64,000 nucleotides of DNA from Hydrogenovibrio sp. Lineage in GTDB: Bacteria; Pseudomonadota; Gammaproteobacteria; Thiomicrospirales; Thiomicrospiraceae. The stretch covers positions 62,001-126,000 of the forward strand of contig WFMZ01000056.1 of the NCBI GenBank assembly GCA_015484555.1, written 5' to 3'. The translations under genes were made by a program, and so were the position numbers. The notes under the pieces were generated by a model. The model searched no databases, was not told the DNA's origin, and worked only from the letters and a program-made list of their open reading frames with translations. Shown piece after piece: positions 13,803 to 52,009 of this stretch (the stretch's first letter is position 1; each line of letters begins with the position of its first letter).

Positions 13803-13845
13803 TAAATTCTATTAACAAACTATTTAACTATATTAAACCAACCGT

Positions 13846-13893
13846 AAAATCGCCAGGGGTGGTCTCATTAAGACACCACCCCTGGCGATTTTT
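13846..13893. repeat. Inverted pair of the dispersed 18-mer forming a long hairpin inside the dcw operon
   Basis: A reverse copy with one mismatch (13846-13863) and an exact forward copy (13876-13893) face each other across 12 bases, giving an 18-bp stem (AAAATCGCCAGGGGTGGT and its complement). In the minus-strand transcript it begins one base after the mraY stop and is followed by TTTTA, so it could act as a partial terminator, attenuator or mRNA-stabilising stem between mraY and murD. That role is inference. Confidence 0.85.
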
Positions 13894-45894: not shown

Positions 45895-45954
45895 GGCTTA
45901 ATTTCTTATACAATACTTTAATCTTATTAAATAATGACAACTTCAGGATTTTCA

Positions 45955-46260
45955 ATGCCAAAATCAAAAAACTTATCAAATACTCAAATTAAATACCTTC
46001 GTGGTCTTGCTCATGGCATTAAGCCAGTTATTATCATTGGTGCAAATGGTATCACTGAATCATTGATGGAAGAACTAGAATCTTCTCTTGACCACCATGA
46101 ACTGTTAAAAGTAAAAATGTCTAGCGCCGAAAGAGAAGATCGTAAAGAATTAATGGCCTATGTGTTAGAAAAAACACAGGCTGACTTAGTGCAGTCAATT
46201 GGTAAAACATTTGTTATTTTCCGTGCAAACGATGAGACTGAGCTACCTTTACCAAAGTAA
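45955..46260 (+). CDS. yhbY: YhbY-type RNA-binding protein (CRM domain)
   Basis: Ribosome-assembly RNA-binding protein, single CRM domain, 101 aa. Seen: LRGLAHGIKPVIIIGANGIT with the GxxG-type loop, and LLKVKMSSAEREDRKE. The start at 45955 (MPKSKNLSNTQ) has AGGA 6 bases upstream. It is divergent from rlmE, the classic gammaproteobacterial arrangement. The perfect 21-bp repeat hairpin follows and probably terminates it. Confidence 0.95.
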   Translation: MPKSKNLSNTQIKYLRGLAHGIKPVIIIGANGITESLMEELESSLDHHELLKVKMSSAEREDRKELMAYVLEKTQADLVQSIGKTFVIFRANDETELPLPK

Positions 46261-46293
46261 AGGCTAGTAAAACAGTCACCATAGTTGAACATT

Positions 46294-46342
46294 AAAAATC
46301 GCCAGGGGTGGTCTAAAGATAAGACCACCCCTGGCGATTTTT
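46294..46342. repeat. Inverted pair of the dispersed 18-mer: perfect 21-bp hairpin, probable bidirectional terminator
   Basis: Reverse exact copy (46294-46311) and forward exact copy (46325-46342). With flanking TCT/AGA the stem is 21 bp without mismatch and the loop 7 bases (46315-46321). T5 ends the stem on both strands. It lies between convergent yhbY and parE, so it should stop both transcripts. Confidence 0.9.
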
Positions 46343-46398
46343 AGGTTTAAATAATTGTGTAAGCTGTATTTAGCATTAAGAAAAAGAGTCTCTTTAAT

Positions 46399-46683
46399 TT
46401 AAAAATATCTCGGGGCATCCATACTTTTATGCAAAATACGTACAATCATAATTCCTTGGCTTATCTTTTTATAGAAAATTAAATGAGAACGGTGCTTAAA
46501 GCACATGTAATCTAAACGAACATATTCAATTTCGTTCCCTAAATCAGGGTTTTCACTAAGAATCTCAAAACATTTTTCTAGCGATTCATGGTAATTGAGC
46601 ATTACCGCAGAACCAAAATTAATAATGAAATAATCAAGAATAGAATCTAAATCAGTACAGGCCTTATTTGAAAGGCTATACAT
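46399..46683 (-). CDS. Type II toxin, RelE/ParE superfamily
   Basis: A 94-aa protein with the ParE-type layout: two N-terminal helices (NKACTDLDSILDYFIINFG) followed by beta strands LDYMCFKHRSHLIFYKKISQGIMIVRILHKSMDA (as RSHLIFYK and IMIVRILHKSMD). The ending RILHKxMD is typical of the family. Gyrase poisoning or mRNA cleavage cannot be decided from sequence. Its start overlaps the antitoxin gene by 8 bases, antitoxin first. Confidence 0.88.
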   Translation of the reverse strand: MYSLSNKACTDLDSILDYFIINFGSAVMLNYHESLEKCFEILSENPDLGNEIEYVRLDYMCFKHRSHLIFYKKISQGIMIVRILHKSMDAPRYF

Positions 46684-46927
46684 CTATGCAGTGCCTTTCT
46701 TTCGCATCACCCATAATATCAGCCATGCTTCTTGCACTTACGCCACTTTTCTCACCATCAATTAAGGCAGAACGAAGTAATCCAATTTTATATTCCTGCT
46801 CCTGGTCATGGCGAATTAATGCTCGTAGATATTCACTATCATTTCCATACTGACCAGAATCAATTTGCGACTTAATCCACACCTCTTGTTGCTCAGTGAC
46901 GGTAATTGTTTTGCGTTGCATTGCCAT
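46676..46927 (-). CDS. Type II antitoxin, ParD-like ribbon-helix-helix
   Basis: An 83-aa protein with an N-terminal ribbon-helix-helix (RKTITVTEQQEVWIKSQI then YGNDSEYLRALIRHDQE) and a short C-terminal toxin-binding tail. Shine-Dalgarno AAGGAG lies 6 bases before ATG at 46927. A 12-bp palindrome CTATAATTATAG upstream is a candidate autoregulatory operator. Together with the downstream toxin it forms a complete ParDE-like module. Confidence 0.88.
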   Translation of the reverse strand: MAMQRKTITVTEQQEVWIKSQIDSGQYGNDSEYLRALIRHDQEQEYKIGLLRSALIDGEKSGVSARSMADIMGDAKERHCIDV

Positions 46928-46966
46928 GACGAACTCCTTCTCTAAAGAAAGTATGATTATATCACA

Positions 46967-46978
46967 CTATAATTATAG
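46967..46978 (-). promoter_or_regulatory. Candidate ParD operator/promoter
   Basis: Perfect 12-bp palindrome CTATAATTATAG, 40 bases upstream of the antitoxin start. A TATAAT-like -10 (within GATATAATCATAC on the minus strand) lies just downstream of it. Confidence 0.45.
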
Positions 46979-47159
46979 CATTTACCCTCATAGCATACAG
47001 GTGTTTACTGTATTTCTGGATGGCTAATAATTTAGATTAACCTCATTAGAAACCTTCGCTACTAATTAGACAACGTAATGGCCATCCCTCCAGATACTTA
47101 TCAAAATAGTAAAATACAACAAGTCAGACGAACTATCCACTAAAAAAGAATGGGCTTGA

Positions 47160-48779
47160 CTATATATTTTTAGCGATTAGCTCAGCCTTTAACAAACCAC
47201 CCTTGGTTAATAGTCTTGCTGAAAATTTAGGATGGCGCCTAGCTTTAAAAGCATCATAAATCAACTTTAACCCCTGTGCTTCAAGCAAAGAAATATTAAC
47301 TTCTGTATCCATTTCAGCGCTTTCAACAAAATCATCAGAAAAACTAGGAGCAATAATCAGCACCTGTGCAACTCGCCGACCTTGGCTTTCACATCTAGTG
47401 ACGTATGCTTTAACTTGTCGCGATGTTGATGAATACTTAGCAAAATCACCATTTTTACAAGTTTTTGCTTCACCTATAATTACATCATCATCACTTAGTG
47501 CAATAATAATATCGGCTTTATCTTTAGCTGTATTAATTACCTTTCGGAAATCTTCATCAACAACAAGGTTAAGTGCTTCAAATATCTCTTTTGTTATTTC
47601 CTCAAACTTAACCCCTATCTCAGCTTCTGCTATTTCAATGCCTGCTGTTTTCAAACTGGCTAAATCTCTTCTGGCAAGCGCGCAATAATTTTCGATTAGC
47701 TTGTCATTCGCATTAGCGAATGACTCTAAAATTAATTGTCGCGCATTACCTCTTTTTGATAATGACATTTTATTTCGTATAATTTTAACTTGCTCATTGG
47801 TTAATAAAAATAAAATATCTACTGGTGTAATACTTAATGCTCGAAGCTTGTCTGTATCAAGCTCTTCTGTATCTTCAAGTTCAAATTCATTTTTCAACAA
47901 TCCTTCAAGTTCTGGAAAGTGGACTTGCAGTGTTGAGTATAGCTCTTTAAAACCTGCTGCACTCAATGCTTCAAACTCACCATTGGCTGATTCATTTAGT
48001 GTATTTATTATGACATCTATCCTATCGTCCAGTGTCGTACCTATCTTATCAAGATTCAAATCTAAATCAGTTATTAATGTTTTGAGCCTTTCTTTTCTTT
48101 GGTTTTGAGTTTCATTTGAACCAAAAATATCACGATGTAATATGTGTCGAATAGCAACACGAGAACTGATTATCTCCTGAATTTTTACCCCCCTTTCAAT
48201 ACCACGCACTTTTTTACCATAATGCTTTAATATATTCGAAAGCTCTGAATCACTAAAGCAACGGAGAATGCGCAAGGTATGTTTATCAGCGAGCTCCTTG
48301 CCTTGTATCTCATTAAGAATAGTGACGACTTCATCTGCAACAAATACTTCTGAGCGTTTACGGTTAATAAATAACACACCCATTTCTCTAAGTTCATTCA
48401 GACCTTCTAATGTATTATTTTGTGGTACTGGGTCAATCATATGTTCTATTGCAGATGCTTCATCCATTGAAATATTTAATCTATCAGCCAGTACATTGAG
48501 AATACTTATTTCATCATCTGTAATTTTGGCTTCACGATTTATTTTTTCATCATTTAGAAATGCGACTTTAAGACAGTCTTGATAAATGCTTAATTGCATT
48601 CCTTTGTTAAAGTCTTCAGTATTTTCACTTGCATCTATTTTTTCTTGAAGTTCTTTAGATGATTTTTTTAATTTACTAAATTCTTCATTGTAAAGAGTCT
48701 CAACCCAAGATGTTCTTGCTATGCTATTGCCATCTCTAGTTAAAATATTAATTAACAAGCCAACTTGAGCCCCTGACAT
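47160..48779 (-). CDS. Orphan protein with C-terminal PD-(D/E)XK nuclease-like domain
   Basis: Not recognised as a named gene. The 539-aa protein is soluble and mostly helical. Residues about 65-115 (KVAFLNDEKINREAKITDDE..) look like a TerB-like helical segment. Residues 180-205 and 325-352 resemble small helix-turn or SAP-like DNA-binding units (LSKRGNARQLILESF). The C-terminal part fits a restriction-endonuclease fold: Glu393/Glu397, Asp423 in KADIIIAL, Glu437-x-Lys439 in IIGEAKTC, then Gln455 on the next helix. No methyltransferase, helicase or other partner is adjacent. A 57-codon ORF lies 50 bases upstream in another frame. A defence role is inference only. No Shine-Dalgarno precedes the ATG at 48779. 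Confidence 0.6.
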   Translation of the reverse strand: MSGAQVGLLINILTRDGNSIARTSWVETLYNEEFSKLKKSSKELQEKIDASENTEDFNKGMQLSIYQDCLKVAFLNDEKINREAKITDDEISILNVLADRLNISMDEASAIEHMIDPVPQNNTLEGLNELREMGVLFINRKRSEVFVADEVVTILNEIQGKELADKHTLRILRCFSDSELSNILKHYGKKVRGIERGVKIQEIISSRVAIRHILHRDIFGSNETQNQRKERLKTLITDLDLNLDKIGTTLDDRIDVIINTLNESANGEFEALSAAGFKELYSTLQVHFPELEGLLKNEFELEDTEELDTDKLRALSITPVDILFLLTNEQVKIIRNKMSLSKRGNARQLILESFANANDKLIENYCALARRDLASLKTAGIEIAEAEIGVKFEEITKEIFEALNLVVDEDFRKVINTAKDKADIIIALSDDDVIIGEAKTCKNGDFAKYSSTSRQVKAYVTRCESQGRRVAQVLIIAPSFSDDFVESAEMDTEVNISLLEAQGLKLIYDAFKARRHPKFSARLLTKGGLLKAELIAKNI

Positions 48780-48829
48780 AATCGGGTAATAGAAATTCTA
48801 CTTTTAAACTCGGTTATTTTTCGGGGGGA

Positions 48830-49003
48830 TTACACCGTGATTTCACTCCCTGACGCATTTTTAATGTGACCATTAATTTTACTAACTGATTTTTCCAGCT
48901 GGTGATCATTAAGCATAGCACCAGAGCATAATTTATCTAAACAAGAAATGAACTTAGATTTTTCTACTTGATTGAGACTTGAAAGGACTTGATTGAGTTT
49001 CAT
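48830..49003 (-). CDS. Small ORF (57 aa), possibly the detached N-terminus of the nuclease-like gene
   Basis: Minus-strand ORF from ATG 49003 to TAA 48830: MKLNQVLSSLNQVEKSKF.., ending ASGSEITV. It is helical and acidic/basic mixed, like the N-terminus of the 539-aa protein next to it. Only a distant GGAG (12 bases upstream) precedes it. The gap to the larger gene has stops in all three frames near 48786-48830, so an ancestral longer gene may have been broken by mutation; or this is a separate small gene. Confidence 0.4.
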   Translation of the reverse strand: MKLNQVLSSLNQVEKSKFISCLDKLCSGAMLNDHQLEKSVSKINGHIKNASGSEITV

Positions 49004-49270
49004 TTTCGGTACCGACTCCGTTAGTTTAATTAACTACACAAGCAATCTTCTACTTAAACAATATTTTTATCAAGCTATACATTGTAAATAATTAAAATCA
49101 GAGGTATTTATGTCTCGGTAGCACACTCATCAAGTGCCGAAGAAGAACATTGACAATTGTAGCCTAAAGCCACTTATTGCTTGGTTTTGCACCTGCTATT
49201 GACTGCTCAAGAGATTTGGTAAAAAAGGAAAGGTAACTAGAGCGGAGATGTTACTCGTTTCAAGCTCTAC
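49004..49270. other. Intergenic stretch, nothing recognised
   Basis: No credible ORF, tRNA or strong hairpin is seen in about 270 bases between the small ORF and the repeat copy near metZ. It should hold the promoter for the nuclease-like gene, but no clear -35/-10 pair stands out. Confidence 0.5.
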
Positions 49271-49288
49271 CCACCCCTGGCGATTTTT
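49271..49288 (+). repeat. Dispersed 18-mer, single copy E
   Basis: Exact CCACCCCTGGCGATTTTT followed by GGGTTTC, 15 bases beyond the metZ stop. Together with the paired copy at 46294-46342 it brackets the toxin-antitoxin/nuclease patch. Confidence 0.9.
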
Positions 49289-49302
49289 GGGTTTCAAACA
49301 AG

Positions 49303-50493
49303 CTAGAAAGCTAAACTATCTAACCCTCTCGCTAAATCTGCTTTAATATCCCTAACTGACTCTAACCCCACTGACACGCGCACCAAGTTGTCCGTAATAC
49401 CCGCTTTTAAACGTGCTTCTGGTTCAACTCGGCAATGGGTCGTCGTGGCTGGGTGCGTAATACTGGTTTTAGCATCGCCTAAGTTAGCGGTAATAGATAG
49501 CATCTCGGTTGCATCAATGACCTTCCATGCATTCTCTTGCCCGCCTTTTACTCTAAACGATAACAAGCCACCCGCACCCGTTTGCTGGACATTCGCCAGC
49601 TCGTATTGTGGATGATTGGTTAAGCCAGGGTAAAATACTGTTTCAACAGCAGGATGCGTATCTAGCCATTCTGCTAAAGCTTGCGCTCTAATGCAGTGGG
49701 CTTCCATACGAACTGACAGCGTCTCTAACCCTTTTAAAAATATCCAAGCATTGAAGGTGCTCATGGTTGGCCCTGCTGTTCGCATAAAGCCTCGAATCTC
49801 TTCGCCAACAACTTCATTAGAACCCACGACAGCCCCACCAATTGCACGACCTTGTCCATCTAAAAACTTGGTAGCTGAATGAATAATAATATCTGCACCA
49901 AGTGCTAAAGGGCGTTGTAAAACAGGCGTACAGAAACAGTTATCAACAATTAGATAAGCATTTGCAGACTTGGATAAGACTGATAAGGCTTTAATATCGG
50001 CCACTTCAGTTAAAGGGTTGGAAGGGCTTTCTAAAAAGAATGCCTTGGTATTGGGTTGAATGGCCGCTTGCCACTCTGCTACATCGGTTTGTGATACAAA
50101 AGTCACTTCCAAGCCAAACTTCGCTAAGTATTTATTGAACAACACCTTCGTGGTGCCAAAAATACTTTGCGATGAAATAATATGGTCACCCGACTCGCAC
50201 AAAGCCATAAAGGTAGACAAAATGGCAGACATACCTGAAGCGGTGCCCACACAAGCTTCTCCGCCTTCCATAAGTGCCAAGCGTTCTTCAAAGGCTCTTA
50301 CGGTTGGATTGGTGAAACGAGAGTAGACATTACCCTCTTCTGCACCACTAAAGCGGTCAGCCGCTTGCTGGGCAGAATGGTAACGAAAGCTAGAAGTTGG
50401 GAAAATAGCTTCACTATTTTCTTGCTCTGCTGTTTGCGTATAGCCGGCTCGAACGGCTAGTGTTTCAATATCGTAATTTTGATCAAGCTTCAT
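49303..50493 (-). CDS. metZ: O-succinylhomoserine sulfhydrylase
   Basis: PLP enzyme of the Cys/Met metabolism family that makes homocysteine directly from sulfide and O-succinylhomoserine, bypassing cystathionine. Seen: YSRFTNPT, GMSAI, DNCFCTPVLQRPLALGAD, the PLP-lysine motif SATKFLDGQGR and SITHPATTTH. The start at 50493 (MKLDQNYDIETL) follows GGAG by 6 bases and overlaps the purF end by 11 bases. 396 aa. The gene choice over metB rests on the purF-metZ pairing known in Pseudomonas-like genomes. Confidence 0.9.
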   Translation of the reverse strand: MKLDQNYDIETLAVRAGYTQTAEQENSEAIFPTSSFRYHSAQQAADRFSGAEEGNVYSRFTNPTVRAFEERLALMEGGEACVGTASGMSAILSTFMALCESGDHIISSQSIFGTTKVLFNKYLAKFGLEVTFVSQTDVAEWQAAIQPNTKAFFLESPSNPLTEVADIKALSVLSKSANAYLIVDNCFCTPVLQRPLALGADIIIHSATKFLDGQGRAIGGAVVGSNEVVGEEIRGFMRTAGPTMSTFNAWIFLKGLETLSVRMEAHCIRAQALAEWLDTHPAVETVFYPGLTNHPQYELANVQQTGAGGLLSFRVKGGQENAWKVIDATEMLSITANLGDAKTSITHPATTTHCRVEPEARLKAGITDNLVRVSVGLESVRDIKADLARGLDSLAF

Positions 50494-52009
50494 CGGACTC
50501 TCCGTTATGAATCCCCACCGGCTCTTGTGCGGTTTCAGGACGTTTAGACTGTGCCCCATCATTTCTGACCAACCCTAAAGAAGCTAAATATTCTTGGGTA
50601 ATATCACCCGTTGCATAGCAACCGCTAAAGCAGGAGGTATCAAATTCTGTAATCGACTTGTTACCCTGCCAAACTGCGTCTACCAAGTCCTCTAAGTGTT
50701 GATAGAACAAGCGATCCGCACCAATGTATTCCGCTACTTCTTCGGTAGTTCGGTTACTGGCTACCAACTCACTGGTAGTTGGCATATCAATACCATAAAC
50801 ATAAGGGTAACGAACGGCTGGTGCTGCTGAAGCAAAGTACACTTTTTTAGCCCCGGCATCTCTTGCCATTTGAACAATTTCACCCGATGTTGTACCGCGC
50901 ACAATAGAATCATCAACCAATAAAACGTTCTTACCTTCAAATTCTAAAGGAATGGCATTTAGCTTTTGACGAACTGATTTTTTACGTAAGGTTTGCCCCG
51001 GCATAATAAAGGTACGGCCAATATAACGGTTTTTAATAAACCCTTCTCTATAAGGTCTTTCCAACGCTTCTGCAACTTGTAAAGCAGAGGTTCTACTGGT
51101 ATCGGGAATAGGCATCACTACATCGATATCATGATCTTTCCAATCTCTTTTAATTTGTTCTGCTAGCTTCTCACCCATTCTTAAACGAGACTTATAAACT
51201 GAAATATCATCAATCATTGAATCTGGACGGGCAAAGTAAACAAACTCAAAAATACAGGGGCTGTATTGCGTCTTTTCGCTACACTGCTGAAAACTAATGC
51301 CGCCTTCTTGTGGGATAGCTACTGCTTCACCTGGTGCTAAATCTTTAAGCAAAGTGTAACCTGCCGCGGTCATTGCTACACTTTCTGAGGCAATCATGTA
51401 AGACATGGAACCATCGTCATTTTGCTTTTCGCCAACACAAATAGGTCTTAGCGCAAATGGGTCACGAAAACCGAATAGGCCGAAAGAAGGAATAACACCC
51501 ACAACAGCATAGCCACCCCGGGCTCTTTTATGCACGCGTTCAATGGCTTTAAAGATATCTTCTGACTCAATCACCAGCTTCTTTTGCTGCATCAATTCAT
51601 GCGCAAAAACATTCAATAATACTTCAGAATCTGAGTTGGTATTAAGGTGTCTTAAGTCTTGCTTATAAAGTTCGGTGCTAAGCTGCTCTGCATTGGTTAA
51701 GTTACCGTTATGCGCCATGGCAATACCGTAAGGCGAGTTGACATAAAATGGTTGAGCTTCTGCACTAGAAGAAGAACCCGCAGTAGGGTAACGTACATGA
51801 CCTATACCAATATTTCCATGTAAATCACGCATGTGTCTAGTACGAAAAACATCCTTTACCATTCCGTTATCTTTACGCTGATACAGACGACCGTTTTCAG
51901 TGGTGACAATACCTGCCGCATCTTGACCGCGGTGTTGCAACACAGTTAAAGCATCATAAATACCTTGGTTAACAGGTGAATTGGAAACGATACCGACTAT
52001 TCCACACAT
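50483..52009 (-). CDS. purF: Amidophosphoribosyltransferase
   Basis: First committed step of purine synthesis. Ntn glutaminase domain begins with the catalytic Cys2 (MCGIVGIV), with QHRGQDAAG and a mature-form start without propeptide. The PRTase domain has VLLVDDSIVRGTTS (PRPP loop). The C-terminus is extended and acidic. 508 aa (E. coli 505). The usual upstream neighbour cvpA is missing here. Confidence 0.97.
   Translation of the reverse strand: MCGIVGIVSNSPVNQGIYDALTVLQHRGQDAAGIVTTENGRLYQRKDNGMVKDVFRTRHMRDLHGNIGIGHVRYPTAGSSSSAEAQPFYVNSPYGIAMAHNGNLTNAEQLSTELYKQDLRHLNTNSDSEVLLNVFAHELMQQKKLVIESEDIFKAIERVHKRARGGYAVVGVIPSFGLFGFRDPFALRPICVGEKQNDDGSMSYMIASESVAMTAAGYTLLKDLAPGEAVAIPQEGGISFQQCSEKTQYSPCIFEFVYFARPDSMIDDISVYKSRLRMGEKLAEQIKRDWKDHDIDVVMPIPDTSRTSALQVAEALERPYREGFIKNRYIGRTFIMPGQTLRKKSVRQKLNAIPLEFEGKNVLLVDDSIVRGTTSGEIVQMARDAGAKKVYFASAAPAVRYPYVYGIDMPTTSELVASNRTTEEVAEYIGADRLFYQHLEDLVDAVWQGNKSITEFDTSCFSGCYATGDITQEYLASLGLVRNDGAQSKRPETAQEPVGIHNGESDEA

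Follow-up and report, generated by a model that had tools for sequence, protein, structure and literature searches.

What does a 539-amino-acid open reading frame between two housekeeping genes of a Hydrogenovibrio sp. genome encode, and how did it come to lie there? The frame occupies positions 47160–48779 on the minus strand of the 64,000-nucleotide stretch that we analysed, referred to here as the window, and an earlier note on this DNA had read it as an orphan nuclease that might form a single-gene defence system.

The nuclease family and its disrupted copy in the window

The 539-aa frame was confirmed in our check of the window's open reading frames, and a scan of our collection with it retrieved 54 relatives in other species at 57–90% identity. 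It also matched PHROG_34709, which has a profile length of 614, over its full length (772 bits), and therefore belongs to the same family as this PHROG, to which no function is assigned; these comparisons place the frame far beyond chance expectation. No significant match to it was found in Pfam or NCBIfam, and none in PADLOC.

Intact relatives are mostly 614 aa long and extend 75 residues further at the N-terminus, so that the window frame corresponds to residues 76–614 of the full-length family. Part of the remaining N-terminus survives nearby: aligned with homologues, positions 48830–49003 (minus strand) hold a detached, stop-terminated remnant of 56 matching codons (MKLNQV...GSEIT) in a different frame from that of the 539-aa ORF, and a profile search recovered the remnant, with its stop, and the ORF as two separate matches. 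At their junction, alignment with close homologues reveals approximately 57 bp of replaced DNA (48780–48836, minus strand) that bring in a stop and a change of frame. Elsewhere in the genome, contigs C38, C24 and C8 carry 83–96% matches to this stretch, which resembles a second dispersed repeat, CCCCCCGAAAAATAACCGAGTTTAAAAGTAGAATTTCTATTAC, and possibly represents the terminus of an insertion sequence. Since the N-terminal codons are split off by it, the window copy is disrupted, barring an assembly error at this point, a defect that the note had overlooked; this copy probably represents a damaged allele and would be a poor guide to the working system. We detected no relaxed selection on this copy, with 52 synonymous and 15 nonsynonymous private codon changes compared with 55 and 9 in the intact homologue L001 (p = 0.26); a long decay is thus not apparent, and either the copy was damaged recently or its truncated product still has a use. 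Broken copies are common in the family (L003, L014, L034 and L039).

We examined the fold on an AlphaFold2 model of L001 (614 aa, pLDDT 87, pTM 0.75), which Foldseek matched to FokI (E = 6e-4). The C-terminal domain (L001 residues 430–614; window positions 47163–47717, minus strand) aligned in VIA-align with N.BspD6I (2ewf; Z = 13.6, rmsd 3.4, 175 residues) and with FokI (Z = 12.7 and 12.6), followed by HindIII and others at Z ≤ 8.8 and by SduA (8ps5) at Z = 6.5. In an alignment of 40 homologues (A1), D498, E512, K514 and Q530 are invariant, as are E468, E469, S528 and R529. The first four are D423 (47511–47513), E437 (47469–47471), K439 (47463–47465) and Q455 (47415–47417, all on the minus strand) of the window protein, precisely the residues that the note had proposed as a PD-(D/E)XK core, with the three catalytic positions spanning 47463–47513. 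The structure prediction that it had recommended as a check returned FokI/BspD6I-type cleavage domains, and this match together with the invariant active site shows that the nuclease call was right. DNA cleavage is a predicted activity of the enzyme, and the closest known shape, as modelled, is that of a type IIS enzyme without a methyltransferase.

The N-terminal part is less distinctive. Modelled within the full protein and alone (300 aa, pLDDT 85), it consistently, though weakly, matched winged-helix domains (highest Z 8.6 and 7.5, respectively), for example those of Orc/Cdc6, CodY, MarR-type proteins and MukE/MukF, and the region in question (L001 residues 76–234) corresponds to 48303–48779 on the minus strand of the window. 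The TerB-like and SAP-like segments that had been suspected in this protein gained no support from these searches: TerB (PF05099) had no Pfam match at E ≤ 10 and was absent from the N-terminal fold matches listed, all of them weak, and SAP had no match in Pfam or NCBIfam at E ≤ 10. WYL, helix-turn-helix plus peptidase, and STAS/GHKL kinase domains likewise had no Pfam match in the window protein.

FokI and N.BspD6I/R.BspD6I thus share with this family a C-terminal cleavage fold, a D...ExK site and a winged-helix-like N-terminal part, but differ in their middle region and have no detectable sequence similarity to it; an HMM search of PDB sequences for a link to FokI or other solved members yielded nothing beyond two chance matches. 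Shedu (SduA) and other single-gene PD-(D/E)XK defence nucleases are comparable in being single genes with this fold; however, the window protein matched no Shedu profile in PADLOC or Pfam, and its structural match to SduA is clearly weaker than those to BspD6I and FokI.

Insertion and lateral spread of the gene

The nuclease gene lies within a 3.04-kb insertion (3042 bp, 46261–49302) between two convergent genes, which we take from their translations to be yhbY (45934–46260, plus strand) and metZ (49303–50562, minus strand). We compared this site with those of ten congeneric genomes in which a single contig carries both the yhbY- and the metZ-like gene, convergent in all ten, and found that the spacer between alignment ends measures 31–61 bp in nine of them and 243 bp in the tenth. 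The insert, whose G+C content is 0.33–0.36 against 0.39–0.45 around it, consists of the nuclease gene and a ParD/ParE pair, and the congeneric sites are empty of both. The ParD antitoxin gene (46676–46927, minus strand; PF03693, E = 5.5e-12; TIGR02606 above cut-off) follows the nuclease directly, 232 bp past its stop codon, and precedes the ParE toxin gene (46399–46683, minus strand; PF05016, E = 1.1e-14). The toxin–antitoxin neighbour between housekeeping genes was therefore correctly recognised in the earlier note, and no methylase or ATPase partner is present within the window, also as described there.

Both ends of the insert carry a genome-wide 19-bp repeat, ACCACCCCTGGCGATTTTT: a terminator hairpin on the yhbY side (46294–46351) and a half hairpin on the metZ side (49271–49297, plus strand), which together form a 27-nt direct repeat at 93% identity. 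In the window the repeat occurs at 2313, 10061, 13845–13893, 23791, 28778, 46294–46342 and 49272, singly or paired as inverted terminators. The 1.92-Mb genome contains 223 exact copies of its core (223–253 counted), evenly in both orientations, and 28 relatives, 11 congeners included, contain none; the repeat resembles a species-private one of the DNA-uptake or terminator type. Because the core occurs more than 200 times in the genome, we did not read the flanking repeat as a target-site duplication and ruled it out as proof of one. Flanking repeats longer than chance were found in few other loci only (L009, L019 and L048).

Amongst 38 relatives, only the window's own genome carries the gene; in the Pseudoalteromonas family it is present in 45 of 395, always at one place per genome. 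When 369 gammaproteobacterial genomes were searched by profile, three had a member of the family, and remote relatives were absent at E ≤ 1e-5. In the gene tree the window copy groups with those of Pseudoalteromonas denitrificans (L001) and Colwellia (support 100/96) and not with its host's kin, which indicates that it arrived by lateral transfer; the tree points to marine Alteromonadales as the source. Of the copies that we found, most lie in chromosomes and not in phages. The phage records of INPHARED had no match to the nuclease, and plasmid records with it were only three, all Pseudoalteromonas megaplasmids or chromids. In IMG/VR, one prophage record (L175:7980–9842) has the nuclease gene in a moron-like position between Mu-like head and tail genes, opposite to their direction, and a second (L174) has it near tail genes, these phage genes being identified by our reading of their translations. 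Insertion sites differ between genera with no shared flank found, and in other unselected relatives the nuclease lies behind genes that we presume to be rpoD, groEL, gcvP or valS. We found no description of this nuclease in the open-access full-text literature; the family is narrow, sporadic, single-copy and undescribed.

Exchange of genes behind the nuclease stop codon

Across 58 loci, the nuclease has no constant neighbour (the commonest neighbour cluster occurs in 16), no constant second gene and no recurrent methyltransferase, a C5-methyltransferase fragment being present in L133 only. This fits the single-gene system that had been envisaged and distinguishes the locus from type IIS restriction-modification, in which a cognate methyltransferase would be expected beside the nuclease gene. 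Adjacency is nonetheless strongly one-sided: in 43 full-length unselected loci, a co-directional gene lies within 100 bp downstream of the nuclease in 18 and upstream in one (Fisher P = 1e-5), the other 25 having no such gene within 100 bp past the stop codon.

The downstream genes vary from genome to genome, many being defence genes. Profile matches across all loci identify among them SIR2+HerA-type pairs (L010, L057), KAP NTPases of the PDC-S20/PifA kind (L006, L044), AbiD/Abi_2 (L024, and as the second gene in L026), an AAA_13 protein of the PDC-S06 family (L025), a PARIS-like AriA + DUF4435 pair (L043), an nSTAND protein (L036), a putative AbiC/AbiP (L035), an ApeA-like protein (L129), a HATPase + response-regulator-like pair (L005), HipA_2 (L018) and a metallophosphoesterase with an ORC-CDC6-like protein (L056). 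Some are not recognisable as defence genes, such as TetR (L002), an alpha/beta hydrolase (L131) and others without identity. Four cargos directly behind the nuclease (L007:9663–10982, L031:9672–10820, L053:9683–10819 and L045:9729–10688) have no clear Pfam or PADLOC match and are candidates for novel defence genes. The suggestion that the nuclease is itself a defence gene thus gains circumstantial support, from its sporadic lateral spread, its carriage inside one Mu-like prophage and its changing defence neighbours, and stands at that level.

Such an arrangement could arise if the nuclease were a regulator or sensor, its winged helix binding its own promoter and its nuclease-like domain sensing or processing DNA damage to switch on the downstream module. 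CapW/BrxR, CapH+CapP and CapK+CapS are precedents, described as 'controllers of adjacent pathways' upstream of diverse immune operons (PMC13373217), and the nuclease gene too stands directly upstream of diverse immune genes, on the same strand and with gaps of 8–90 bp. Besides its winged-helix-like N-terminus, a conserved (G/C)TAGATTGG element precedes the gene in two clades; however, this motif resembles a plain −10 element (TAGATT), most loci have no downstream cargo, and all the catalytic residues are invariant, although a pure regulator could do without them. The Cap-type controllers also differ in their domains, and the WYL, peptidase and kinase domains are lacking here, while the nuclease has an intact active site and often stands alone. 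We consider a regulatory role, with control of the downstream module in the Cap fashion, to be unlikely.

Alternatively, the locus may simply be part of a defence island, since upstream neighbours also have PADLOC matches in 4–5 of 10 cases; even so, close adjacency remains one-sided. Upstream of the nuclease, L001 (1984–7764) and L003 encode a protein of approximately 1930–1950 aa (11 bp away), which L018 has in the vicinity. Ordinary clustering, in which neighbours change as usual at insertion-tolerant spots and the nuclease has no functional or recombinational role, would suit the many loci without cargo, and exchangeable defence modules between conserved borders are known from island hotspots of Pseudomonas (PMC12629846). 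Here, in contrast, the conserved border is a laterally moving nuclease gene, the same one at unrelated chromosomal sites in many genera.

The position of the border also bears on this explanation. We found cargo swapped between loci that are otherwise 88–99% identical, with divergence beginning at the nuclease stop codon. The Pseudoalteromonas loci L010 and L056 are approximately 98% identical over 9.6 kb up to this codon and 99% identical again from +4055 and +3895, respectively, with SIR2+HerA between the identical parts of the former and the metallophosphoesterase pair between those of the latter. Similarly, four Rheinheimera loci (L035, L042, L043 and L045) have both flanks in common at 88–95% and four different segments between them. 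For 80 pairs that have no cargo in common, alignment stops −6 to +10 bp from the stop codon; in five Pseudoalteromonas loci, the right border coincides with the 3′ terminus of a helicase gene in convergent orientation. A left border that in these 80 pairs always falls within 10 bp of the nuclease stop codon, together with adjacency of 18 versus 1, makes island clustering a rather unlikely account of these loci.

How the modules are exchanged is suggested by the 3′ end of the gene. Between L010 and L056, synonymous differences are clustered in its last ~70 bp, with 98–100% identity in most windows elsewhere, and similar tracts of ~30–100, 300 and 900 bp occur in other pairs. These mosaic ends indicate that part of the nuclease gene enters along with the new cargo, as is characteristic of homologous recombination in which the gene provides one arm. 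Across genera, the 3′ end shows no conservation of synonymous positions, which gives no evidence of a fixed cleavage site there, and we found no convincing copies of this end beyond the cargo.

The same patterns could be produced by a selfish homing-type or mobility nuclease that cuts sites lacking the unit, is copied in by repair and takes defence genes along as passengers, perhaps itself stimulating cassette exchange at its own 3′ end. Its nuclease fold and its laterally mobile, single-copy presence at scattered sites between housekeeping genes agree with this, as do swaps that start at the stop codon and crossovers no more than 30–100 bp from it in several pairs. Different genera, however, share neither an insertion site nor flanking sequence, no fixed self-target is visible in the unconserved 3′-end synonymous sites, no recombinase accompanies the gene, and within Rheinheimera it is inherited in place. 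We therefore regard homing, and with it stimulation of exchange by such an element, as quite unlikely. Active cassette exchange, in which the nuclease would cut incoming or resident DNA at its own gene's end, or close to it, and so provoke module-swapping recombination, seems improbable to us; if true, it would provide a recombinase-free analogue of the integron platform for immune genes.

Proposed role of the nuclease gene

We give about an even chance to the explanation that the gene encodes an orphan FokI-type defence nuclease and serves as a fixed homology arm for the exchange of defence modules, with the copy in the window disrupted. The product would be an endonuclease of ~614 aa, composed of a winged-helix-type N-terminal region, a helical linker and a FokI/BspD6I-type PD-(D/E)XK domain, which most likely acts alone against foreign DNA. 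Because no methyltransferase travels with the gene, the DNA that it cuts or nicks is probably marked by a sequence, modification or structure that is absent from the host. As a single-copy accessory gene, presumably with its own promoter region, it moves among marine gammaproteobacteria, as the tree shows. In many hosts it is the first gene of a short co-directional unit, with an interchangeable and often defence-related gene next to it, which would be expressed together with the nuclease from the promoter region that holds the (G/C)TAGATTGG element. Judging by the mosaic 3′ ends, ordinary homologous recombination would exchange these modules with the nuclease gene as the left arm, altering only what follows its stop codon, as in the swaps described above.

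The exchangeable gene behind the stop codon in the relatives is the most informative feature of this family, and it is invisible from one window. If our explanation is correct, an unannotated family of FokI-type orphan nucleases joins the bacterial defence repertoire, and the exchange of single defence modules without a dedicated recombinase becomes testable. The nuclease stop codon would then be a fixed address for the swapping of defence genes, known as well as unknown, so that scanning this position could reveal new immune systems, of which the unmatched cargos of L007, L031/L053 and L045 would be examples. The nuclease gene may thus mark a place where bacteria exchange immune genes.
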